A stretch of 64,000 nt of DNA from an uncultured Bacteroidales bacterium. GTDB lineage: Bacteria > Bacteroidota > Bacteroidia > Bacteroidales > FEN-979. Every line of letters begins with the position of its first letter. The first letter of the stretch is position 1. Below, in pieces: positions 1-52,768 of the stretch. The notes beneath the pieces were generated by a model. That model did not search any database. It saw only the letters and a program-made list of their open reading frames with translations, and had not been told where the DNA came from. The position numbers were made by a program, and so were the translations under genes. Location of the stretch: positions 1 to 64,000 of the forward strand of contig CAJAUM010000110.1 in assembly GCA_903945175.1 (NCBI GenBank). Direction: 5' to 3'.

Positions 1-168
1 ATAGGCAATAGGCAGTAGGCAGTAGGCAATAGGCAATAGGCAATAGGCAATAGGCAGTAGGCAGTAGGCAATAGGCATTAGTCAATTAGTCATTGGTCAT
101 TGGTCATTGGTCATTGGTCATTGGTCATTCGTCATTCGTCATTCGTCATTCGTAATTCGTAATTCGTC
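1..168 (+). repeat. Heptamer tandem array abutting rdgB start
   Basis: Twenty-four consecutive 7-bp units in one unbroken register fill bases 1-168, and the next base is the A of the rdgB ATG. Units 1-11 are (A/G)TAGGCA. Units 12-13 are transitional. They are followed by five ATTGGTC, three ATTCGTC, two ATTCGTA and one ATTCGTC. The array continues off the left edge. There are no spacers, so it is not CRISPR, and it contains no TAnnTTTG promoter box. Confidence 0.97.
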
Positions 169-747
169 ATGTCCGATCTTCTCTTTGCCACAAATAACAT
201 CCATAAACTCCGGGAAATCCAGGAAATTCTTGGAAATAATTTTAAAATTTTGAGTCTGAAGGATGTAAACCTTGATGTTGAAATTCCTGAAACTCAGGAA
301 ACCATTGAAGGAAATGCCGCCCAAAAGGCCCGGTTTATCAGGGAAACGACGGGGATGAATTGTTTTGCTGATGATACTGGTTTGGAAATCAATGCACTGG
401 ATGGCCGTCCGGGGGTCTATTCGGCCCGGTATGCCGGCGAAGGCTGCAGTTTTGATGACAACATCGACAAAATTCTGATGGAATTGTCAGGTATTGAAAA
501 CCGCAAAGCATGTTTTCGCTGCTCCATCTGCCTGATTATGGATGGCAGCGAGTACCTGTTCGAAGGGAGGGTTGACGGCATTATTACGAAAGAAAGACAA
601 GGTTCGGACGGCTTTGGATATGATCCGGTATTCCTTCCCGATGGCTACCGGCAAACCTTCGCCGAAATGCCTGCCTATCTGAAAAACGGCATAAGCCACC
701 GGGGGAAGGCCGTGTTAAAAATGGTTCGGTTCCTGAAAAAACAATAA
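169..747 (+). CDS. rdgB: RdgB/HAM1 non-canonical purine NTP pyrophosphatase
   Basis: The 192-residue protein has the usual length and motifs of the RdgB/HAM1 (Maf-Ham1 fold) family, which hydrolyses dITP, dXTP and XTP to monophosphates and keeps deaminated purines out of DNA and RNA. Visible signatures are FATNNIHKL at the N-terminus (nucleotide binding), SARYAGEG in the middle, GFGYDPVF about residue 150 and SHRGKA near the C-terminus. It is a soluble cytoplasmic protein. The start at 169 matches the family N-terminus. No promoter is visible because the 168 bases upstream are a heptamer array. A strong terminator follows at 772-811. Identification is by motif and length. Confidence 0.96.
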   Translation: MSDLLFATNNIHKLREIQEILGNNFKILSLKDVNLDVEIPETQETIEGNAAQKARFIRETTGMNCFADDTGLEINALDGRPGVYSARYAGEGCSFDDNIDKILMELSGIENRKACFRCSICLIMDGSEYLFEGRVDGIITKERQGSDGFGYDPVFLPDGYRQTFAEMPAYLKNGISHRGKAVLKMVRFLKKQ

Positions 748-4810: not shown

Positions 4811-5554
4811 ATGAAAAGCCGGTTATTATACCTGATTTTGCTTTCGGGAATTACGTTGTCAGCCTTAGCACAAAGCCTTGAACTTTCCAACAAAAATGGT
4901 GTTATCACACGCAATTCCACCATCATTCAGATGGGATCTCCCGACAGTGCCGAACTTGTCACCTACCTGCATGTGAAAAATATCGGCGTTAAACTGATCA
5001 ATGTTTTGTGTAAGAAATCTCAGCTGGTTATGCTTGATTCTACGGAAACTACCATGTGCTGGGCCGGCAGTTGTTACCCTGCGAATGTAAATATTTCACC
5101 AAACGCGCAGCCCATTGCAGCCGGAGAGACGATCACCGATTTTGACGGACGTTATGTCCAGATCGCATTTCAGCCTTTCAAACCGGGAGAAAGCCTTGTT
5201 CGTTGGGTCTTTTATGATGAGGCCAATATAAACGATTCTAGTAGCGTAACCGTTAAATACACCTCTTATCCATTGGGAATAGAGCATGAGGCTGCAAGGC
5301 AGACGATGCTTTCAACCGCTTATCCTAACCCGGCCGGCCCAAGCGCGAGTTTCAATTATGCGATTCCTTCCGGATCTGCTGGCAAATTCATCCTTAGAAA
5401 TATGCTTGGTGCAACAGTGCAAACGGAGCAGTTATCATCCGAAAGTGGAAAATTCACCATCAATACCGCCAACCTGAGCGAAGGAATTTATTTTTATTCT
5501 CTCGTGGTTGATAGTAAAATCAGCCAGACCAAAAAGCTGGTTGTGAAACACTAA
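4811..5554 (+). CDS. Secreted protein with type IX sorting domain
   Basis: A 247-residue protein with a signal peptide cleaved after LSALAQ (residue ~21). The N-terminal ~145 residues form a beta-rich region with a Cys pair (CWAGSC), consistent with an immunoglobulin-like or DUF4397-type fold, but I cannot name the domain. The C-terminal ~75 residues are a type A T9SS sorting domain: AYPNPA, then an NMLG turn, EGIYFYSL, and a final KKLVVKH. Such proteins cross the outer membrane by the Por/Gld secretion system, whose component PorT is encoded at 14213. Function is unknown. Confidence 0.85.
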   Translation: MKSRLLYLILLSGITLSALAQSLELSNKNGVITRNSTIIQMGSPDSAELVTYLHVKNIGVKLINVLCKKSQLVMLDSTETTMCWAGSCYPANVNISPNAQPIAAGETITDFDGRYVQIAFQPFKPGESLVRWVFYDEANINDSSSVTVKYTSYPLGIEHEAARQTMLSTAYPNPAGPSASFNYAIPSGSAGKFILRNMLGATVQTEQLSSESGKFTINTANLSEGIYFYSLVVDSKISQTKKLVVKH

Positions 5555-5555
5555 G

Positions 5556-6461
5556 TTAGTCCGGTTGCAGTGAAATGGATTGTCCGGAAACCCACCCACG
5601 GATAAAAGTCGGCATTTTTTCAATATCATAAAGAATGGAAGCTGCCGGAGTCGCATCCGGGAAGATCTCCACAAAATACCAATCGTTACGCTGTCCATAG
5701 GATTTGATCGCCAGGACATTCCCCTTTGCCCGTGTACGGTATTTTGCAATGATGTTGCCAAATGTTTCAAGATGGGGATCAAAGGGTTCATTGAGCCGGG
5801 CTGCCGAAGCCCTCAGCATCATGGTGTCAGCCCTCGATATGAAAGGCATGGCCGCAGGATAAAAAAATGATGGTTCTTCTGTGTATTTATAGGCGACGAT
5901 TTGCTTGCCTTTAACAAAAATTGCCTCCCCTTTGTCATGACGAATGGTGTAATTTCGGGTAAAATAAAGATAGGCGTCGCAGCAGCCGGCATCTCCGGTT
6001 TGCATCTCCTTTAGAAAACCTTGATCACAAATGAATTGTGTAATATACTGGTAATCTTCAAAAACCAGCTCGAAGCTGTCTTTGCGGTTCAGGTAAATCC
6101 TTACTATATCCGACTCTCCGCCGCTGGATCCACTGAAAATGATGTCGGGGAGCTGATCACCATTGATTTCGACCGGATAAAGGCATTTTTTTAAATCCTT
6201 CAGACTGAGACTCCGCAAAGAATCGCTTGTGAATTGAGGATACTGTTCAAGATGCTTTGAAAGGAATGAATCAATGATTTTACCCGAACCTGAAACAGTG
6301 AAGCGCTTCAGGTTGATTTTTGAAGGTTTCGCAATGTGGGTATACCGCTTCCAATAAAATGTATCGGTCGCGGTTGTGTAAGTTTTCAGGTTGATTTGTG
6401 CCTCAACAGAAAGCGAAAGAAATGTGAAGGCGATAAAAACAAAAAGATAACCGGATTTCAT
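5556..6461 (-). CDS. Exported protein of unknown function, FG-GAP-like segment
   Basis: A 301-residue protein with a signal peptide (cleavage after SVEAQ, residue ~21). Residues ~95-125 (EINGDQLPDIIFSG) resemble an FG-GAP/VCBS calcium-binding beta-propeller blade. The C-terminal ~60 residues, ending in RGWVSG, look like an SH3-type domain of the kind found in periplasmic Bacteroidota proteins. The start codon directly follows the metK stop codon with no gap, so the gene is probably read through from metK, although no functional link to methionine metabolism is visible. I do not recognise the family. Confidence 0.7.
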   Translation of the reverse strand: MKSGYLFVFIAFTFLSLSVEAQINLKTYTTATDTFYWKRYTHIAKPSKINLKRFTVSGSGKIIDSFLSKHLEQYPQFTSDSLRSLSLKDLKKCLYPVEINGDQLPDIIFSGSSGGESDIVRIYLNRKDSFELVFEDYQYITQFICDQGFLKEMQTGDAGCCDAYLYFTRNYTIRHDKGEAIFVKGKQIVAYKYTEEPSFFYPAAMPFISRADTMMLRASAARLNEPFDPHLETFGNIIAKYRTRAKGNVLAIKSYGQRNDWYFVEIFPDATPAASILYDIEKMPTFIRGWVSGQSISLQPD

Positions 6462-7805
6462 TTAAATGCCGAATTCCTTCTTCACCTTGGCAACGAAGTC
6501 GAGTTTTTCCCAGCCAAAGAAATCCACCTTCTTCAGGTATACCTCTTTCCCGTTTCCATTGACTTTCTTAGGTTTCGCACCCTTTACCGGATAGAAAACT
6601 TCCACCTCCCTGGTGTAGTAATCCCGGCCAAAGTGTCCATATGAAGCGGTAGGCTTGTAAATGGGGTTCTTTAGGCCAAATCGCTCAACGATTGCATAGG
6701 GGCGCATGTCAAAGACCTTGTTGATCTTTTCGGCAATGGCGCCGTCGGTGAGAAGGTTGCCCTTTTTATCTTTTACTTTGGCTGTACCAAATGTATTGAC
6801 ATATAAACCTACAGGCTCTGCAACGCCGATGGCATAGGCTACCTGGATCAGGGCCTGGTCAGCAACGCCGGCAGCGACCATGTTCTTTGCGATGTGACGT
6901 GCGGCATATGCTGCGGAACGGTCTACCTTTGAAGGATCTTTTCCGGAGAAGGCGCCTCCGCCATGTGCACCGTGTCCGCCATAGGTATCAACAATGATCT
7001 TGCGGCCGGTAAGACCGGTGTCGCCATGAGGTCCGCCAATCACAAACTTTCCGGTGGGGTTCACATGCAGTTTGTAATCACCATGGAAAAGCTTTTGAAT
7101 GCGGGGAGGTAAGGTCTTCTTTACCCGGGGAATCAATATTTTCTGGACATCCTCTTTGATCTTGTCCTGCATGGCTTTTTCGGCCACTTTTTCAGCCTTG
7201 GCCGATTTATCTTTGGGTTGAACAAAATCGTCATGTTGGGTGCTTAAAACGATGGTATCGATGCGAACCGGTTTCCCGTTGTCATCATACTCAATGGTGA
7301 CCTGTGATTTGCTGTCGGGCCTGAGATATTTCATCTGCTTGCCTTCACGACGGATCTCGGCCAGTTCCTGAAGCATGATGTGAGCCAACTCAATGGACAT
7401 GGGCATCAGGTTATCCATTTCAGTGCAGGCATACCCGAACATCATTCCCTGGTCACCAGCGCCCTGATCCTCTTTCTTTTCGCGTACAACGCCCTGGTTG
7501 ATATCGGGCGATTGTTCATGAATGGTAGAGATTACCCCGCATGAATCGCAATCGAACCGGTACTCAGCTTTGGTGTAACCAATTTCACGCACCACACGGC
7601 GGGCTGTTTCCTGAACATCCACCCATCCCTGAGTCTTTACTTCACCTCCGCAAACAACCAGTCCGGTAGTAACAAAAGTTTCACAAGCTACTTTGGACTC
7701 AGGGTCCCATTTCATGAATTCATCAAGCAATGCATCCGAAATCTGATCGGCTACTTTATCCGGATGCCCCTCTGATACGGACTCCGATGTAAATAAATAT
7801 CCCAT
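6462..7805 (-). CDS. metK: S-adenosylmethionine synthetase
   Basis: MetK makes S-adenosylmethionine from methionine and ATP. The 447-residue protein begins with the family N-terminus ([14 protein letters not shown], with the ATP-binding His) and contains [26 protein letters not shown] (phosphate loop) and [16 protein letters not shown]. It is longer than the ~384-residue E. coli enzyme because of a lysine-rich insertion about residues 200-225 and a C-terminal extension. The leader carries a SAM-II-like aptamer (7866-7920), so the gene is probably repressed by its own product. Between the aptamer and the ATG lies a heptamer array. The next gene downstream starts with no gap. Confidence 0.97.
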
Positions 7806-7854
7806 GATTGTGATTTTAGATTTACGATTTATGATTTACGATTTGTGATTGAAG
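7806..7854 (-). repeat. Heptamer array in the metK leader
   Basis: Seven 7-bp units in a single register start immediately next to the metK ATG. On the plus strand they read GATTGTG, ATTTTAG, ATTTACG, ATTTATG, ATTTACG, ATTTGTG and ATTGAAG. In the gene direction they are A-rich units (CGTAAAT-like). The array separates the riboswitch aptamer from the start codon. Confidence 0.9.
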
Positions 7855-13409: not shown

Positions 13410-13455
13410 TATACCCTGTTACCTTGTCACCCTGTTACCCTGTTACCCTGTTACT
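13410..13455 (+). repeat. 8-bp tandem repeat (GTTACCCT) before ubiE
   Basis: Four full units of GT(T/C)ACC(C/T)T in register (13418-13449) with partial units on both sides, ending 7 bp before the ubiE ATG. The same 8-mer family occurs as ten units at 25183. Confidence 0.92.
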
Positions 13456-13462
13456 TTAAACC

Positions 13463-14164
13463 ATGATTGAAGTATCCAAAAAGGAGGCCGTGCGTGTGAT
13501 GTTTGATGAGATCTCACCAAAGTATGACTTCCTGAATCATTTTCTTTCTTTTGGCATCGATCAGGTGTGGCGTAAAAAGCTTGTGACGATGCTTGATTCC
13601 CATCACCCGCTCACTGTGCTCGATGTGGCCACCGGAACGGGTGATCTTGCCATTGCCATTGAATCGGTGAAGCCTCAGAAAATTGTCGGGATTGATATCT
13701 CCGAGAAAATGCTTGAGGTTGGCCGGAAGAAACTAAACGCTAAAGGGCTGGACCATTTAATAACCCTTCGGCGGGCCGATGCAGAAAAAATTCCGTTTTC
13801 TGATCATTCATTCGAAGCCATCACCGTGGCATTTGGGGTGAGGAACTTTGAAAACCTGGAACTGGGCCTGACAGAGATGCGCAGGGTGCTTCGTCCGGGA
13901 GGGGTGATGTTGATTCTTGAATTTTCCCATCCCTCCTCATTCCCAATGAAGCAGCTCTATGGGATCTATTCCCGTTTTGTGATACCCCTGATGGGCCGGA
14001 TCATATCAGGGAGCAGCAAAGCATACACCTATCTTCCCGAGTCTGTGGCAGCGTTCCCATCCGGACAGAAATTCCTGGATATTCTTTTGAAAGCAGGATT
14101 AAAAAATGTTAGCCAGCGTAGCCTCAGTGCAGGAATTGCCTCCATCTATCTGGCCGAAAAATAA
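13463..14164 (+). CDS. ubiE: Demethylmenaquinone methyltransferase
   Basis: A 233-residue class I methyltransferase with the UbiE/MenG signatures: FDEISPKYDFLNHFLSFGID at the N-terminus, SAM motif I VLDVATGTGDLAIA (~residues 53-66), acidic ligand GIDISEKML, AFGVRNFENL, and LRPGGVMLILEFSHP. It makes the last methylation of menaquinone, using SAM from MetK; menaquinone is the likely electron donor to the respiratory module at 35.7-38 kb. Downstream is porT, an arrangement known from Porphyromonas and relatives. An 8-bp repeat array occupies the region just before the ATG. Confidence 0.96.
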   Translation: MIEVSKKEAVRVMFDEISPKYDFLNHFLSFGIDQVWRKKLVTMLDSHHPLTVLDVATGTGDLAIAIESVKPQKIVGIDISEKMLEVGRKKLNAKGLDHLITLRRADAEKIPFSDHSFEAITVAFGVRNFENLELGLTEMRRVLRPGGVMLILEFSHPSSFPMKQLYGIYSRFVIPLMGRIISGSSKAYTYLPESVAAFPSGQKFLDILLKAGLKNVSQRSLSAGIASIYLAEK

Positions 14165-24084: not shown

Positions 24085-25182
24085 TTATCCGTCCAATGCT
24101 TTGTTTATAATATCACGCATCGCCGTAAAATGTTCCTCCATGCTTTGCACCAATTTGAATTGTGCCCTGGCTCTTTGCAGATTGTGCCCGGGAAAGCCGA
24201 TTTTGAAATAATGGTCCCCGTCGATGTGATCGGTTAAAAAACGCAGCCCGATGAGGTAGGTCATGAACTTTGCAGAGAAGGCCAGATGGTTGATTTCGAT
24301 TGTGTTCAGGAAATTTCGGGCAATCCCGAGATAGCCTTTCGCGTAGGCTGTAAACAGATCAAGGTCAATATTCACCCTCAGCAGATCTGCTTCATCTTCA
24401 GCCCCGGTAGAGGCCCCGGTACGGATGGCATCACCGAAATCGTATAAAACGTAGCCTGGCATGACCGTATCAAGATCAACCACGGCGATGGCCTTGTTTT
24501 CGGGGTTAAACAGCACATTGTTGCATTTGGTGTCGTTGTGGGTGACACGCAGGGGGATTTTCCCAAGTTCCCCCAGCCGCAGGATGGTGTGCATCTCCTC
24601 TACGCGTGATTCGACAAAATCGATCTCTTCTTTTGCATCCCTGACCCTGTGGGCAGGATTGCAACGCACAACTTCACGGAAATTTGAAAGCCGAAACGCG
24701 ATGTTGTGAAAATTGGGCAGAATTTCAAATAGCGTATCAGCCTTGAAATCAGAGGTGAGGTACTGGAACGTGGCGAAAGCCTTGCCTCCTTCATAGGCCA
24801 GTTCAGGGTTTTCCAGCATATCGTAGCTTCTGCTTTGTCTCACATGATTGTATAATCGCCAGTAATTCCCTTCTTCGTCCTGTGTGTAATAACCGCCACT
24901 CCTGGTCTGGGTCAGATGAATGGTCTGAAAATGGCCATAGCGCGCCTGATCAGAGATCAGTTTTTGTTGCAGGTGCTTTGTGATCCTGCGTATGTTATTG
25001 GTGAGTTCCCCGACGTTGGTAAAGATCTTGTGATTGATACGCTGAAGGAGATAGTTGGTGGCCGGTTCGGGAGCAGTGGTTACCAGGTACGAATCGTTGA
25101 TATGGCCTGAACCAAAGGGTTTTACTGAGATGATATCTCCTTCTGTTTTGAACCGGCTGATAATATTGATATGGCTATTCAT
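24085..25182 (-). CDS. Aminoglycoside-phosphotransferase-fold sugar kinase, NahK-like
   Basis: A 365-residue APH-fold kinase: FGSGHINDSYLV (glycine-rich loop, residues ~23-34), catalytic loop RVTHNDTKCNNVLF (His215, Asp217) and metal site AVVDLDTVMPGYVLYDFGD (Asp236). The HNDTK...NNVLF and DLDTVMPG forms are those of N-acetylhexosamine 1-kinases, which phosphorylate GlcNAc or GalNAc at C1 and so feed a phosphorylase-type salvage route. Homoserine kinase II or choline kinase relatives remain possible. Its neighbour is the GH20 enzyme, transcribed the same way. An 8-bp repeat array begins at the base adjoining the ATG. Confidence 0.78.
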   Translation of the reverse strand: MNSHINIISRFKTEGDIISVKPFGSGHINDSYLVTTAPEPATNYLLQRINHKIFTNVGELTNNIRRITKHLQQKLISDQARYGHFQTIHLTQTRSGGYYTQDEEGNYWRLYNHVRQSRSYDMLENPELAYEGGKAFATFQYLTSDFKADTLFEILPNFHNIAFRLSNFREVVRCNPAHRVRDAKEEIDFVESRVEEMHTILRLGELGKIPLRVTHNDTKCNNVLFNPENKAIAVVDLDTVMPGYVLYDFGDAIRTGASTGAEDEADLLRVNIDLDLFTAYAKGYLGIARNFLNTIEINHLAFSAKFMTYLIGLRFLTDHIDGDHYFKIGFPGHNLQRARAQFKLVQSMEEHFTAMRDIINKALDG

Positions 25183-25268
25183 GTCACCCTGTTACCCTGT
25201 TACCCTGTTACCCTGTTACCCTGTTACCCTGTCACCCTGTCACCCTGTTACCCTGTCACCCTGTTACT
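25183..25268. repeat. 8-bp tandem repeat array between kinase and POT genes
   Basis: Ten full units of GT(T/C)ACCCT in perfect register (25183-25262) plus a partial unit. The array starts at the base adjoining the ATG of the minus-strand kinase gene and lies about 87 bp before the plus-strand transporter ATG. The only variation is T or C at position 3. Same family as at 13410. Confidence 0.97.
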
Positions 25269-30380: not shown

Positions 30381-31286
30381 CTATTTAATGCTTTTCAAAT
30401 AATCAGTGATTTTGGTGATTTCATCTTCGGTAACAATGCCTTTGTAAGTCTTCATGATGCCTTTCTGAAAACCAATAACCAGGTCTTTATCAGGATCATA
30501 AACGGATGTTTTGATATAGGCATCATCGACGGTAACCGTACGCTCAGATCCATTGGTGATGACGCGCTCTGTTTTTCCATACAATCCCTTGAATGAGGTG
30601 CTTACAATTTTCGATCCATCAATGGAATGGCACCCTGTACATGCATTTTTCTTTAGAATGGTAAGGCCTTCCGGCTCATTCGTTTTTTCTGGCAACGCTT
30701 TCAGCCATGCCTGGTATTCCGCTTCAGGTACAACTTTGGCCTTGGCTTCCATGTAGGAGTGGCGCAGTCCGCAGTAAACCGTGCATAGGATGTCGTACTC
30801 GCCGGGTTGCTGGGCGATAAACCACATGTAATTATTTTTTCCGGGAACCACATCCTCCTTGATACGGAAAGCAGGAATATATAAACTGTGAATAACGTCG
30901 TCGGAGTGCAGGTTCAGTTTAACAGCCTTGTTAAGTGGAACGACCAGGTCAGCCGATTGTTTTCCCCCCTCATATTCGAAAGTCCATACCCACATTTTGC
31001 CTATAACTGTGATGGGAATGGCATCTTTGGGAACAATGCGCATCGGGCTGAAGGCCACATATCCATAGTAAAACATGAGAAGTACCAGGATCAGCGGAAT
31101 GGTAATCCAGGTGATTTCCAGAATATTGTTGTCTTTTATCTGAATGGCCCGGGGATGGCGCTTCCGGTTATATCGGAAAACAAAATAGAGCATGACGGTT
31201 GTAATCCCCACCAGGAAAAACAAGCTGATTCCGAAAATGATCTTAAAGGCCAGATCAACACCTTCAACAAAATTTGAAGCACCCAT
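30381..31286 (-). CDS. coxB: Cytochrome c oxidase subunit II fused to cytochrome c
   Basis: A 301-residue subunit II: two N-terminal membrane helices (~12-36 and 56-78), then a cupredoxin domain with CuA ligands His133, Cys168, Cys172, His176 and Met179 (CTVYCGLRHSYM). It is followed by a cytochrome c domain (heme motif CTGCH at 216-220, Met278 as likely distal ligand). This makes the enzyme caa3 type: it can accept electrons directly from another c-type heme. Subunit II is encoded downstream of subunits I, III and IV, the reverse of the usual order. The gap between it and subunit IV is a heptamer array. Confidence 0.95.
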   Translation of the reverse strand: MGASNFVEGVDLAFKIIFGISLFFLVGITTVMLYFVFRYNRKRHPRAIQIKDNNILEITWITIPLILVLLMFYYGYVAFSPMRIVPKDAIPITVIGKMWVWTFEYEGGKQSADLVVPLNKAVKLNLHSDDVIHSLYIPAFRIKEDVVPGKNNYMWFIAQQPGEYDILCTVYCGLRHSYMEAKAKVVPEAEYQAWLKALPEKTNEPEGLTILKKNACTGCHSIDGSKIVSTSFKGLYGKTERVITNGSERTVTVDDAYIKTSVYDPDKDLVIGFQKGIMKTYKGIVTEDEITKITDYLKSIK

Positions 31287-31362
31287 ATGTTTGATTTACG
31301 ATTTACGATTTTTCTTTTTTTGCCACGCGTCACGTGTCACGCGTCACACGTCACGTCTTTTG
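31287..31362 (-). repeat. Heptamer array between subunit IV and subunit II genes
   Basis: Ten 7-bp units in one register from the base adjoining the subunit II start codon to 31356, then 6 bp to the subunit IV stop codon. In the gene direction the order is four GC-rich (A/G)CGTGAC-like units and a GCGTGGC, then an A-rich stretch, then CGTAAAT twice next to the start codon. Confidence 0.93.
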
Positions 31363-31647
31363 TTACCTGAATAAATAATCCGACAAAGTGAACGCAATGA
31401 CCAGAACATAAATAAATAACACCATGAATACGAATACGCGAAACAGCGACGATTCGAACTTCAGATGCATAAAATAGGTAAGCACAATATACGCCTTTAC
31501 TGTGGCGATCAATAAAGCGACTGCCACCGTGAGAGCTGATAAATCGATCCAGGTCGCCGTGATTGTAATAAAGGTTAATCCCAAAAGGGTGATCAAAACC
31601 CAGGCGAGGGTGCGGTAAGGAGTTATATGAACTGTTTCGGGATGCAT
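31363..31647 (-). CDS. Cytochrome c oxidase subunit IV
   Basis: A 94-residue membrane protein with three hydrophobic helices (~12-30, 36-58, 68-90) and the sequence AYIVLTYFMHLKFE, the mark of the small prokaryotic subunit IV of caa3/aa3 oxidases (CtaF/CoxD type). It sits between subunit III and subunit II. Flanked on both sides by heptamer arrays. Confidence 0.88.
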   Translation of the reverse strand: MHPETVHITPYRTLAWVLITLLGLTFITITATWIDLSALTVAVALLIATVKAYIVLTYFMHLKFESSLFRVFVFMVLFIYVLVIAFTLSDYLFR

Positions 31648-31756
31648 ATTTTAAAATTTACGATTTACGATTTACGATTTACGATTTTGTTTTGTTACGC
31701 GTCACGCGTTACCTGTCACGTTTTTTCAGTCACGCGTCACCTGTCACGTTTTTTTG
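31648..31756 (-). repeat. Heptamer array between subunit III and subunit IV genes
   Basis: 109 bp (about fifteen and a half units) fill the entire gap between the subunit III stop codon and the subunit IV start codon in one 7-bp register. In the gene direction: GACGCGT/GACAGGT/GACTGAA-like units first, then GTAAATC x3 and two A-rich units directly before the ATG. Confidence 0.95.
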
Positions 31757-32350
31757 TCACGTAATAAGATACAACAATGGAAACAGATAGATCCAGATCA
31801 GGTCAACGAGATGCCAATAGAGACCTCCATTTTCAAGAAGTACATAACGATCTTTGTTGATGGATCCATTTTGAACCTTTATGATGGCAATGGTCAGAAT
31901 GATCCCGCCAACCACGAGGTGAAACATGTGTAATCCGGTCATGAAATAATACAGACTGAAGAACATCACCTGCCCGTGACTCAGTGTGAGCATCAGCGCT
32001 GAACCTGGATAGAGCCCGATGTGAATTTTATGACCCCATTCAAAATATTTATTGACCATAAATATGGCGGCGCAAAGCAGGGTGATAAGCAATAAAATCA
32101 CAGCAAGCTTCTTATTTCCCTTCTGCACCGCACTGATCGACATGGCCACCGTCGCGCTGCTGACCAGCAGAACAACGGTGTTTATGGCGCCAATAAAGGC
32201 ATTCAGGTGGTGGGCTGCCTGGTGAAATTCAGTAGAGTAACTGCTGCGCATGATTGCATAAACCAAGAATAATCCGCCAAAGAGGAGTATTTCAGTAAAA
32301 ATAAAGATCCACATGCCCAATTTTGAACCAATGTCATCGCGATGTTCCAT
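31757..32350 (-). CDS. ctaE: Cytochrome c oxidase subunit III
   Basis: A 197-residue subunit III with five membrane helices: the short five-helix form found in caa3 oxidases, not the seven-helix mitochondrial type. Signatures are KLGMWIFIFTEILLFGG at the N-terminus, GHKIHIGLYPGSALMLTLSHGQVMFFSLYYFMTGLHMFHLVVGG in parts about residues 104-147, and GLYWHLVDLIWIYLFPLLYL at the C-terminus. Part of the oxidase operon. A heptamer array precedes the start codon. Confidence 0.95.
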   Translation of the reverse strand: MEHRDDIGSKLGMWIFIFTEILLFGGLFLVYAIMRSSYSTEFHQAAHHLNAFIGAINTVVLLVSSATVAMSISAVQKGNKKLAVILLLITLLCAAIFMVNKYFEWGHKIHIGLYPGSALMLTLSHGQVMFFSLYYFMTGLHMFHLVVGGIILTIAIIKVQNGSINKDRYVLLENGGLYWHLVDLIWIYLFPLLYLIT

Positions 32351-32418
32351 ATTTCGATTTTCGATTTATTGTTATCCTCAGTTTTTCACCTGTTCACTCG
32401 TCATTCGTCACTCGTCAC
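32351..32418 (-). repeat. Heptamer array between subunit I and subunit III genes
   Basis: 68 bp filling the whole gap from the subunit I stop codon to the subunit III start codon: nearly ten 7-bp units in register. In the gene direction GAGTGAC/GAATGAC/GAGTGAA units come first and A-rich TCGAAAA and TCGAAAT units lie next to the ATG. Confidence 0.9.
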
Positions 32419-34029
32419 TTACTTATAATCATACGGCTGCTCATTCTCCGCCATCTCCGGCATTACTTCGAAGTTCTCCACAGGCGGAGGAGAGGGAATG
32501 CGCCACTCAAAAGTTCGGCCACCCCAGGGGTTGTCGGGTGCAGGGGCCCCTTTTTTACTGAAGAGGGTGATCAACATGATGATGAATCCGATGACAAGCA
32601 ATAAACCGCCAAAGAACGAGAGTTGATGACCCAGGGTAAACTGTGGGAGATAATCAAAGTAACGGCGCGGCATACCCATCATCCCGATAATAAATTGAGG
32701 GAAATAGAGCAGGTTGAAGCCGGTAAAGAGGAAAACGAAGGACCAGTTGGCCATTTTAAAATTATACATCCGGCCGTACATCTTTGGATACCAGTAAAAG
32801 ATGGCTGCAAAAAAGGCAAATCCGACTCCGCCAAAAACGATGTAATGGAAATGGGCTACGACGTATGCTGTGTCGTGAACGTGAATGTTGGTGGCAAGAG
32901 CGCCAAGAGATAAACCGGTCATCCCTCCGATCATAAACAGGAAGATAAAACCAAGGGCAAAGAGGAAGGGTGGCTTTAACGAGATGGACCCCTTATACAT
33001 GGTGGTAACCCAATTGAAAACCTTGATGGCGCTTGGAACGGCAACCAGGAAGGTGAGCAGTGAAAAGACCCAGCGGGCCGTGGTGCTCATGCCGGAGGTA
33101 TACATGTGGTGTGCCCAAACGAAATACCCCACCAGGGCAATGGCAAGGCTGGATATGGCAATGGCTTTGTACCCAAATATCTTCTTTTGTGAAAAGGTGG
33201 GTATAATTTCCGTGATCACGCCCATGGCTGGCAATATCATAATATAAACGGCAGGATGGGAGTATATCCAGAACAAATGCTGGTAAAGAACCGGGTCGCC
33301 ACCCAGGGAGGGGTCGAAAAATCCGATTCTCAGCCACCGTTCGGCAATGATCATCAGCAGTGTAATCCCAACAATCGGGGTAGCCAGAACCTGGATCCAG
33401 GCTGTGGCGTAAAGCGACCATGGAAAAAGTGGCATTTTGAAAAATGTCATTCCCGGCGCACGCATGCGGTGCATGGTGACAATGAAGTTCAACCCGGTGA
33501 GTATGGAGGAAAAGCCGAGGACAAAGGCTCCGAAAACGGCGGCCACCACATTGGTATGGGTTTGTATGCTGTAGGGGGCATAAAACGTCCATCCTGTGTC
33601 AGGTGGGCCGTTCCCCATGAATTGTGAAGCGAGGGCAATGGCAGCGCCAATCACATATAAATAAAATGAAAACAAATTTAACCGCGGAAAGGCCACATCC
33701 CTGGCACCAATCATGATGGGCATCGAAAAGTTTCCGAATACCGCAGCCAGCCCGGGAATTACCACGGTAAAAATCATAATGATGCCGTGTATGGTGAATA
33801 TTCCGTTGTATGCCTGGGGGCCGTAGAATTGCTGGCCCGGCCAGAACAGTTCTATGCGCATCACCATACCGAGGATGACCCCAACGGCAAAGAACACCAT
33901 CATGGCATACATGTACATCAGCCCGATCCGCTTGTGGTCGGTCGATGTAAGCCAGGCCATCAGGCCTTTATACTTGCCGGTATCAACAAGGTAACTTGGC
34001 TCAGGGTGGTGCGTCTTTTCTTCTGTCAT
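32419..34029 (-). CDS. ctaD: Cytochrome c oxidase subunit I (A2-type)
   Basis: 536 residues from the ATG at 34029; a longer reading would need an implausible start inside the upstream gene. Twelve membrane helices carry the heme ligands (HGIIMIF region and HFHY, His393/His395), the CuB ligands His258 (YSHPAVY, with cross-linked Tyr262), and His307/His308. The YSHPxV motif in place of HPEV marks an A2-type heme-copper oxidase, as in Rhodothermus and Thermus caa3 enzymes: a Tyr-Ser pair takes the place of the D-channel glutamate. The enzyme reduces O2 to water and pumps protons. Confidence 0.97.
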   Translation of the reverse strand: MTEEKTHHPEPSYLVDTGKYKGLMAWLTSTDHKRIGLMYMYAMMVFFAVGVILGMVMRIELFWPGQQFYGPQAYNGIFTIHGIIMIFTVVIPGLAAVFGNFSMPIMIGARDVAFPRLNLFSFYLYVIGAAIALASQFMGNGPPDTGWTFYAPYSIQTHTNVVAAVFGAFVLGFSSILTGLNFIVTMHRMRAPGMTFFKMPLFPWSLYATAWIQVLATPIVGITLLMIIAERWLRIGFFDPSLGGDPVLYQHLFWIYSHPAVYIMILPAMGVITEIIPTFSQKKIFGYKAIAISSLAIALVGYFVWAHHMYTSGMSTTARWVFSLLTFLVAVPSAIKVFNWVTTMYKGSISLKPPFLFALGFIFLFMIGGMTGLSLGALATNIHVHDTAYVVAHFHYIVFGGVGFAFFAAIFYWYPKMYGRMYNFKMANWSFVFLFTGFNLLYFPQFIIGMMGMPRRYFDYLPQFTLGHQLSFFGGLLLVIGFIIMLITLFSKKGAPAPDNPWGGRTFEWRIPSPPPVENFEVMPEMAENEQPYDYK

Positions 34030-47364: not shown

Positions 47365-47467
47365 TGGATTTTACGATTTACGATGTATGATTTATGATTT
47401 CCAAATTTGATTCAATTTACCACTGCTCCATTTCGCTACTTCGCTACATCACTATTTTGCTGCCGCG
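47365..47467 (-). repeat. Composite repeat array between ppk1 and ftsB-like gene
   Basis: 103 bp filling the whole gap. Next to the ftsB start, in the gene direction, are A-rich TAAATCG/TAAATCA 7-mers (47372-47399). Farther off is a block of about five 8-bp GTAGCGAA-like units (about 47421-47466). The layout (GC-richer units far, A-rich units near) matches the oxidase-operon arrays. Confidence 0.8.
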
Positions 47468-51415: not shown

Positions 51416-52768
51416 ATGCTAAACTTCCATTCCCGACGGTTTCACTCCTCATTTGTCACGCGTCACGCATTATTTGTCATTTGTCATTCGTCATTTGTCA
51501 TTCGTTATGCGTCATTGCTTTTCCTCTTCCTTTCCTCATCCCTCTTCGCTCAGCCCGATGCAAGCCGGAATATTCGGATCAAACTCGGATCAGATCCATC
51601 AAAAGCAAGTTCAGCCCTGAGCGGCCTTAATCCCTTCGTGCCAGTTACCATTAATCCCGGAGTACCAGTAACGCTGACAGCTGAATATGGTAAGATCGGG
51701 ACCCCGGTATACATTGCTGAGGACGGCGTGAGCCCCGGCTATGATATTCTTTTTCCTTTCTCTTTCTTTGGGAAGCAATACAGTAAATTTTATATTGGGG
51801 CCAATGGTTGGATTAGCTTTAGCCCCAATCCGCAGGCTGTAGGAGTTGATGTTATCTTTTCGATACCCAGTTCTGGTAATCAAGAAATCCCGCGAAATTG
51901 CATTCTTGGTCCTTTGGTACTTTTAGCTCCTGAAGGAGCCGGCAGTCCATACATCTATTTTGATACGATCGGAGAGGCGCCAAATCGCAAATTGGTTGTC
52001 ATGTGGTGTCAGTGCCCCATGTATGCCTGCAATGATTTAACGGTTACTTTCCAGATCATTCTATATGAAACATCAAATATTATAGAGACCCATATTTCCC
52101 GCAAACCAGAATGCACCACGCTTACCTTTGATGGCTTTTCAACATTGGGGGTTTTGGATGGAAATGTATATGATTCAAAGGGGTTTCCTGTTCCTGGTAA
52201 AAATAATACCTTGTGGGAGGCAGACAAAGAAGCATGGAGATTTGAACCCAATGCTTCCCAGGATATTTACAATATTATCCAAAATATTGATTATCAATTA
52301 ATTCCCATCACACCCCCCGGTGATAAGATCGAATACCGCTGGTACGAAGGATCCAATACGGAACCTTTTTCCTTTGATCAAACGGTGGTGGTGGTGCCCA
52401 ATGAGACTACAACGTATCTTGTCTCCGCGACCATTTGTAATGGAGAAACCTTCACCGAAACGGTTACAGTTACTGTTAAACCGGATATTCCCAATGCGTT
52501 TAACCCCGGCAGCCCCATCGATGGAAACAGAACATTCAAGATTTTTGGCACGCCTCCGGAGAACATTACCAAGTACAACATTAAAATTTATAACCGCTGG
52601 GGTCAGATGGTTTTCATCTCTAACGACATTGAGCAGCCCTGGGATGGATCGATCAACAACAATGAGATTGATAAATGCCCTGAAGGCGTTTATGTTTGGG
52701 TGATCTATTACGAGAATGCCAATAAAACAAAGGTTACCAATAAAGGAACCGTAACACTTTTTCGATAA
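51416..52768 (+). CDS. Secreted protein with gliding-motility type C-terminal domain
   Basis: A 450-residue exported protein. The signal peptide is unusually long (residues 1-45, ending LFAQ), and residues 12-32 are the translation of the heptamer array (SFVTRHA, LFVICHS, SFVIRYA). After it comes a nidogen-like or CUB-like beta region (~60-280), then a PKD-like segment with PNETTTYLVSA. The C-terminal ~90 residues are a type B T9SS sorting domain (IPNAFNPGSPIDGN, ... YNRWGQMVF, ... CPEGVYVWVI). Function unknown; probably a surface or adhesin-type protein. An alternative start is the TTG at 51515, just past the array, but that leaves a signal with no positive charge. Confidence 0.85.
   Translation: MLNFHSRRFHSSFVTRHALFVICHSSFVIRYASLLFLFLSSSLFAQPDASRNIRIKLGSDPSKASSALSGLNPFVPVTINPGVPVTLTAEYGKIGTPVYIAEDGVSPGYDILFPFSFFGKQYSKFYIGANGWISFSPNPQAVGVDVIFSIPSSGNQEIPRNCILGPLVLLAPEGAGSPYIYFDTIGEAPNRKLVVMWCQCPMYACNDLTVTFQIILYETSNIIETHISRKPECTTLTFDGFSTLGVLDGNVYDSKGFPVPGKNNTLWEADKEAWRFEPNASQDIYNIIQNIDYQLIPITPPGDKIEYRWYEGSNTEPFSFDQTVVVVPNETTTYLVSATICNGETFTETVTVTVKPDIPNAFNPGSPIDGNRTFKIFGTPPENITKYNIKIYNRWGQMVFISNDIEQPWDGSINNNEIDKCPEGVYVWVIYYENANKTKVTNKGTVTLFR
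51444..51516 (+). repeat. Translated heptamer array in a signal peptide
   Basis: About ten 7-bp units in register (ATTTGTC, ACGCGTC, ACGCATT, ATTTGTC twice, ATTCGTC, ATTTGTC, ATTCGTT, ATGCGTC). Because three 7-bp units equal seven codons, the reading frame stays open and repeats every seven residues. Confidence 0.92.

Follow-up and report, generated by a model that had tools for sequence, protein, structure and literature searches.

The window, that is, the whole stretch of 64,000 nucleotides analysed here, carries on its minus strand four oxidase subunit genes assigned by Pfam matches to COX1, COX3, COX4_pro and COX2, and the three gaps among them (32351-32418, 31648-31756 and 31287-31362) are occupied by short repeated words. 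In the gene direction, all three gaps presented the same layout, in which GTGACGC/GTGACGA-like words were followed by a short A-rich linker and then by TCGTAAA/TCGAAAA-like words, the last of which ended 0 to 9 bases short of the ATG. The repeat blocks are the following:

32389-32418, minus strand: GC-richer heptamers GTGACGA/ATGACGA on the stop side of the COX1-COX3 gap, right behind the COX1 stop codon (TRF 32394-32419, period 7)
32351-32370, minus strand: start-side, A-rich heptamers TAAATCG/AAAATCG ahead of COX3
31694-31756, minus strand: stop-side GTGACGC/GTGACAG/GTAACGC block in the COX3-COX4 gap, partly a 28-base repeat (TRF 31701-31761, period 28)
31648-31693, minus strand: start-side TCGTAAA array with an A-rich linker ahead of COX4 (TRF 31656-31687, 100% matches, period 7)
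31322-31362, minus strand: stop-side GTGACGC/GTGACAC words in the COX4-COX2 gap (TRF 31324-31355)
31287-31321, minus strand: start-side A-rich linker and TCGTAAA pair ahead of COX2

A lag of 7 bases gave the best self-match in every one of these gaps (0.54, 0.61 and 0.64), with a periodicity p of 0.005 per gap, which is the floor attainable with 200 dinucleotide shuffles, and the GC content of the first and second halves was 0.50/0.26, 0.48/0.25 and 0.58/0.26. A first-pass annotation of this DNA had proposed a common layout, GC-richer words first and A-rich words near the start, and this was observed in 3/3 gaps for both the words and the half-gap GC. The same annotation had described the gaps as almost entirely 7-bp units in register, which proved too strong: period 7 was present in all three, but the words were broken up by A-rich linkers, the COX1-COX3 gap was the weakest of the three, and the COX3-COX4 gap was in part a 28-base repeat.

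Further arrays were found elsewhere in the window:

1-170, plus strand: graded array running from ATAGGCA through ATTGGTC and ATTCGTC to ATTCGTAA, reaching the ATG of a Ham1-like gene
7807-7854, minus strand: TCGTAAA/TCATAAA array ahead of the gene starting at 7805
13412-13458, plus strand: related octamer array TACCCTGT ahead of the gene at 13463
25179-25267, minus strand: octamer array GGGTAACA/GGGTGACA in a divergent gap, ending at the ATG of the minus-strand gene
47370-47400, minus strand: TCGTAAA/TCATAAA array ahead of a small predicted ORF with a TTG start
51442-51516, plus strand: ATTTGTC/ATTCGTC array that overlaps a CHU_C-type gene at its predicted 5′ end

The word of the array at 1-170 changed stepwise toward the start codon (ATAGGCA, ATTGGTC, ATTCGTC, ATTCGTA), as if neighbouring words had been mutated and re-amplified in turn. 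The octamer GGGTAACA fills the divergent gap at 25179-25267 and was found in the opposite orientation at 13412-13458, ahead of a gene 12 kb away. GTAGCGAA octamers lie at about 47431-47449, behind the gene that precedes the array at 47370-47400. The gene at 51416-52768 encodes a CHU_C type IX secretion signal domain, and its 5′ end is overlapped by the array at 51442-51516, which is either translated as an N-terminal extension or followed by the true start, a TTG just behind the array.

The same gaps were compared in relatives, whose records are MAGs in which arrays may be collapsed. The genus sample comprised 18 further species, each represented by one genome, and the same gene was present in 15 of these; the closest pair in which arrays were seen (L028 and L031) was 87.4% identical. 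Among the best 80 of 310 loci of the COX3 scan, and counting gaps of up to 350 bases with both flanking genes present, periodicity at p <= 0.01 was detected in 37/50 gaps of the near group, that is, the window plus the 16 loci whose COX3 is 80% identical or more (34/47 when the window was set aside), in 14/40 gaps at 71-80% identity, and in 9/147 gaps below 71%, 79 of these 147 being shorter than 28 bases. In the periodic gaps of the near group the best lag was always 7 or 8, and the first half was GC-richer in 47 of the 50 gaps (44/47 without the window). The start-side word was TCGTAAA or TCGTAAT in many near relatives, L015, L016 and L017 differing from this, and the stop-side word depended on the genome: GTGACGC in the window, CGAGGTAG and GTAAGTTG in L005, GTGGGCAA in L009, CGGACAGG in L010 and CTGGTGAA in L028. 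Stop-side 8-mers were shared between different cox gaps of one genome at a level of 0.094, against a permuted mean of 0.016 and a maximum of 0.066 in 500 permutations. Since the stop-side words differ between genomes while the layout is common to them, the layout is conserved while the stop-side sequence turns over.

A quadruplex motif was predicted on the sense strand of 5/50 near-group cox gaps (L007, L009 three times, and L015), in each case within the stop-side array, with none on the antisense strand and none in the gaps of the window. Two long gaps in relatives were also observed. The coxA-coxC gap of L035 (1116 bases, at about 4880-6000) holds an apparent inserted gene starting MKAKDIAPSNNYNELVSQ, with none at that place in the other gaps compared, and the cox4-coxB gap of L032 (597 bases) holds an apparent extra small gene with a signal-peptide-like start.

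Beyond the oxidase genes, 648,814 bases of the own genome were sampled (the window plus 40 stretches), with genes called by a simple codon-based finder that is crude, so that start positions are uncertain; the unselected samples are small, and several other counts given below come from stretches or loci chosen for holding a word. The sample contained 49 arrays with a period of 7 or 8 bases, against none in one dinucleotide shuffle per piece, and a looser threshold gave 74 against 3. Considering gaps of at least 30 bases, arrays occurred in 28/185 co-directional, 5/31 convergent and 6/68 divergent gaps. Within the genus, 14 of 19 genomes contained three tandem copies of TCGTAAW, at 3 to 353 hits per genome (overlapping windows counted), and the other 5 had none; in the order such copies were present in 20/149 genomes of scattered families. 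The same query read backwards gave nothing in the genus; across the order it gave 2 hits, both in a single genome. By eye, GTGAC was read in the gene direction in 18/21 co-directional gaps among 30 own-genome matches (16/19 without the window's own gaps), and 5 of the 30 matches lay between convergent genes.

The first-pass annotation had named a genome-wide two-domain pattern as one check on its proposal, and this was only partly borne out. The first half was GC-richer in 20/25 co-directional array gaps of the own genome (p 0.0041) and in 71/126 array-free gaps. In a stricter test, which set aside the cox gaps as well as a single own-genome stretch selected because it contained a known array, the order was found in 15/20 array gaps of the own genome (p 0.04), 13/17 in genome G018 and 7/11 in genome G012, and in 71/124, 41/57 and 30/53 array-free gaps, respectively; pooled over the three genomes, the counts were 35/48 and 142/234 (p 0.14). 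Thus, as the order is weaker without the cox gaps, two domains are a tendency across the genome, most pronounced in the own genome and in the cox gaps, and the order is not clearly specific to arrays, because array-free gaps show it too, as in the own genome and G018.

The near-equal frequency of the order in array-free gaps would suit an explanation by plain local slippage, in which each array grew from the local gap sequence and the layout follows a composition gradient that is usual in gaps, and heptamers indeed outnumber the other classes of long simple repeats in most genomes, according to Mrazek 2007 as cited in PMC4679880. However, the vocabulary of words is far too small for this: 61 heptamer arrays included 110 same-word pairs, where 3.1 were expected and 13 was the maximum in 2000 draws, so that local slippage alone does not explain the arrays. 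A composite with a linker also recurs at unlinked loci, as described below, which speaks against the same explanation. Plain local slippage is accordingly already disfavoured as the source of the words and, as a full account, it is improbable.

The arrays were found to be oriented relative to gene ends. Counting arrays that lie inside the pieces and outside predicted coding regions, and setting aside the cox gaps and selected pieces, the 3′ side of TCGTAAW arrays was the one nearer to a coding-sequence end at 19/23 sites in three genomes of the genus (p 0.0026), with 11/14 among sites facing starts and 8/9 among sites facing stops; with the cox gaps kept, the count was 30/34. As controls, isolated TCRTAAW heptamers had the 3′ side nearer in 67/173 cases and the backwards heptamer in 47/100, the isolated heptamers being no neutral control, since they lean the opposite way. 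Stretches chosen around sites in four other families gave 45/54, or 24/31 without G094, in which the word belongs to a longer dispersed element; among these 31, start-facing sites reached only 5/10. When the word family was widened to [CG]GT[AC]A, so that the complement of GTGACGC was covered too, the polarity was 15/18 in unselected pieces and, in selected loci, 27 vs 10 in the own genome and 21 vs 7 in genome G007. Pairs of TCRTAAW lay up to 45 bases upstream of a start and read toward it at 15/23 distinct own-genome sites (loci were available for 30 of the 34 hits), and they lay up to 60 bases upstream at 22/23 sites in near-relative loci, mostly homologous cox gaps. Arrays also faced stops, namely 7/13 TCGTAAW arrays in G012 (6 facing starts) and 34/54 in the other families. 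The polarity is a firmer rule than the two-domain order, and hence a two-domain co-directional gap can be read as two arrays placed back to back.

Words that carry stop codons might also serve as combs: with a stop in each word and a period indivisible by 3, stray translation would be ended whatever its frame. Arrays on the start side, at 1-15 bases from the start, agreed with this, with stops on the sense strand only in 35/59 and on the antisense strand only in 8/59. Behind stop codons the idea failed once the arrays overlapping the stop were set aside (sense only 15/40 vs antisense only 14/40), and words such as GTGGGCAA and CGGACAGG contain no stop at all, so that such combs can hardly be credited.

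Besides single words, larger units were found to recur: the repeat words, together with one relative's composite that includes a non-repeat linker, appear at unlinked gaps. In G041, the genome of L028, an 84-base composite query gave at least 45 matches, and at least 11 of these, the query itself excluded, spanned at least 60 bases, with 40 of 77 candidates scored in both cases. Ten G041 loci picked by eye, three of them cox gaps, were aligned and showed the order CTGGTGAA-like words, GTAAAAA...TACTTT, ACTTTAT words and TTCGTAA words, the linker GTAAAAA...TACTTT being present in 9/10 and the TTCGTAA words in 7/10. A composite query from the own genome gave at least 40 matches with 40 of 123 candidates scored. 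The genes behind own-genome composites include what we take to be DsrC-like, PFK-like, PhoU-like, AroC-like and rplY-like products, and a presumably DsrC-like gene carries a composite leader both in the own genome (L248) and in G041 (L219). A regulon was considered and rejected, the genes behind the composites looking unrelated (28 loci, two of them without a call, with tentative names given from the sequences).

Other arrangements were observed in genomes G140 and G094. In G140 (L275-L279 and L309-L314), CAGCGATCAG-like repeats often stand ahead of TCGTAAT words, perhaps another composite module in a different family. In G094 (L295-L300), a dispersed element ~110 bases long is bounded by ATTATATTAA-like inverted ends and has TCGTAAW words close to one of them; it looks like a miniature inverted-repeat element.

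Base composition was compared between arrays touching only a start and arrays touching only a stop. In the own sample the GC contents were 0.330 vs 0.500 (n = 9 and 13; p 0.018). Outside the cox gaps the comparison was not significant in G018 (0.257 vs 0.276; n = 9 and 12) or in G012 (0.251 vs 0.408; n = 3 and 6), the contrast being weaker than when the cox gaps of these two genomes were counted; it gave 0.275 vs 0.330 with p 0.09 in G007, and the contrast was not seen in other families, where only four arrays were start-only. In unselected pieces, the ratio of GTAA to GTCA in six start-facing arrays was 9 : 3 in the last two words and 9 : 26 in the earlier ones; in stop-facing arrays it was 13 : 11 and 14 : 25, respectively. 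An A word stood among the last two in 6/6 start-facing vs 7/12 stop-facing arrays (p 0.11). A larger set gave 14 : 4 facing starts and 3 : 33 facing stops, a contrast that arises partly because these loci were chosen by word and that is smaller in the unselected pieces.

Upstream of the starts themselves (-15 to -1), the co-directional array gaps of the own genome had A at 0.40-0.45 and G at 0.07-0.09 (n = 22), and this A enrichment, with no SD upstream of own starts, is what characterizes an A-rich initiation region without SD. The available part of PMC6847099 describes Bacteroidota that do without Shine-Dalgarno use and reports that adenines at -3, -6, -12 and -13 accompany high translation in F. 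johnsoniae. The Kozak-like initiation regions of Bacteroidota, as described in that part of PMC6847099, share with the arrays the A upstream of starts and the lack of an SD, the start side being G-poor here. Those regions, however, are a positional base preference (PMC6847099), whereas here a tandem repeat is found whose distance from word to start is not fixed. The A words on the start side agree with selection for A near starts, short of proof.

The first-pass annotation had interpreted the layout as a functional leader with two parts, and this is one competing explanation: the A-rich array would act as a ribosome standby site or initiation enhancer, and the GC-rich array would bind a protein or an RNA. 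The orientation of TCRTAAW pairs toward starts and of GTGAC along the genes is what such a leader would lead one to expect, as is the order found in the cox gaps of relatives (44/47) and in the own genome (15/20), but this last evidence loses force with the order not being clearly array-specific. That the A-rich part aids initiation is in keeping with the A-rich, G-poor composition upstream of starts; against it, TCGTAAW arrays also face stops, which a translation leader does not predict. No specific site was evident in the GC-rich part, as the word differs between genomes at one and the same gap and is also found between convergent genes, and the downstream genes are mixed and form no evident regulon. 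A search of positions 31000-32700 gave no Rfam match at gathering score, and when the three gaps were folded as RNA in 15 genomes, they were not in general more structured than expected (mean z 0.17 to 0.53), with single exceptions such as L015 4B at -5.2; a structured RNA leader or riboswitch was rejected on these grounds. With 5/19 genomes of the genus also free of the TCGTAAW triplets, the two-part leader, though partly supported, is doubtful and deserves only to be kept in mind.

The polarity, being alike toward starts and stops, would also fit a dedicated system acting at the DNA level, in which some protein or enzyme would read the directional word, insert copies of it into gaps and fix them to the ends of genes. 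The patchy occurrence of the arrays (20/149 genomes of the order, and 0 to 353 hits per genome within the genus) and the recurrence of composites with their linker point in the same direction, and a similar polarity rule is printed for the GGGAATC repeats in the available portion of PMC4692102. However, no agent was found. The own genome, which is 98% complete, had no PF01797 match and thus no Y1 transposase detected in this way; over 19 genomes, Y1 transposases followed the arrays in a weak trend (rho 0.47, p 0.04 uncorrected), and reverse transcriptases showed none (rho -0.12). Neither enzyme therefore bears a convincing relation to the arrays as a spreading agent, and REP elements spread by RAYT were rejected by the absence of PF01797 matches in the own genome. 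A dedicated system of this kind is considered quite unlikely.

Dispersed tandem repeats of heptamers are known in cyanobacteria as STRR heptanucleotide repeats, and the head-to-tail arrangement of long simple sequence repeats, with units of 5-11 nt, is found here in the 49 arrays that had no counterpart in the shuffle. The arrays fall into one group with the TAACTGA and GGGAATC repeats, of which they form a variant distinguished by two classes of word in each gap and by composites that recur. In the part of PMC4679880 available, TAACTGA direct repeats are described from Beggiatoaceae, Cyanobacteria and five Bacteroidetes; in one genome they lie mostly just upstream of start codons, mostly without Shine-Dalgarno sequences, and in F. 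litoralis they occur once behind a stop, in reverse orientation. As far as that part of PMC4679880 goes, both kinds consist of intergenic heptamers with no pattern of gene function, a patchy distribution and mixed heptamers, and the arrays studied here differ in their two word classes per gap, their composite with a linker and their fast-changing stop-side word. The forward orientation shortly upstream of starts was likewise found in the own genome (15/23 sites) but is not the rule in G012, and the double TAACTGA word (TAACTGATAACTGA) was not found in the own genome.

The GGGAATC and GGGGA(T/C)T heptamer repeats are reported from Xanthomonas and Nostoc in the available text of PMC4692102. As presented there, they resemble the arrays in being dispersed and intergenic, with one fixed side near the gene end whatever the gene direction, in having neighbours that belong mainly to general metabolism or are hypothetical, and in their general lack of association with mobile elements (PMC4692102); the fixed side was found here at the 19/23 sites of the genus and the 45/54 of other families given above. 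The GGGAATC repeats are, according to the same text, G-rich and quadruplex-forming; the main words found here are not, though some stop-side octamers do carry the predicted motif. In the own sample it was present in 2/49 arrays, both octamers.

These results are best accommodated, at about an even chance in our judgement, if the repeats occupying the cox gaps belong to a dispersed family of tandem repeats with units of 7 and 8 bases. The arrays are dispersed and polar, draw on a small vocabulary, include a recurring composite and share a layout in the cox gaps. They look like such a dispersed family and not like a special switch for oxidase genes, because their words recur genome-wide and in relatives, adjoin gene ends directionally and are A-rich at these starts. 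Copy number would shift through replication slippage, words would be carried to other gaps when arrays recombine or when the template is switched from one array to another, and the arrays would be tolerated mainly outside genes. Near starts, the A variants may be favoured because initiation regions are selected to be rich in A and poor in G. The two-domain layout would then consist of a pair of arrays set back to back, the first attached to the stop upstream and the second to the start downstream, and not of a designed oxidase leader. This dispersed-repeat account offers no mechanism for the like polarity at starts and stops. A more speculative possibility, which we hold to be rather unlikely, is that gene ends are marked by a directional repeat system of the DNA, in which a trans-acting factor reads a TCGTAAW-type word, spreads whole composite leaders between genes and anchors them in a fixed polarity at starts and stops, with translation tuning the start-side copies; if this were true, the directional repeat system would constitute a mobile, slippage-tunable intergenic module at many housekeeping genes.

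Arrays of heptamers close to gene ends have also been described in unrelated bacteria, and no agreed explanation for them exists. The genus studied here offers the same operon gaps with a similar layout and different words, a controlled polarity rule and recurring composites, and it is this material that makes testable how the words spread and whether translation is affected. The finding also cautions against taking such arrays for gene-specific regulatory sites.
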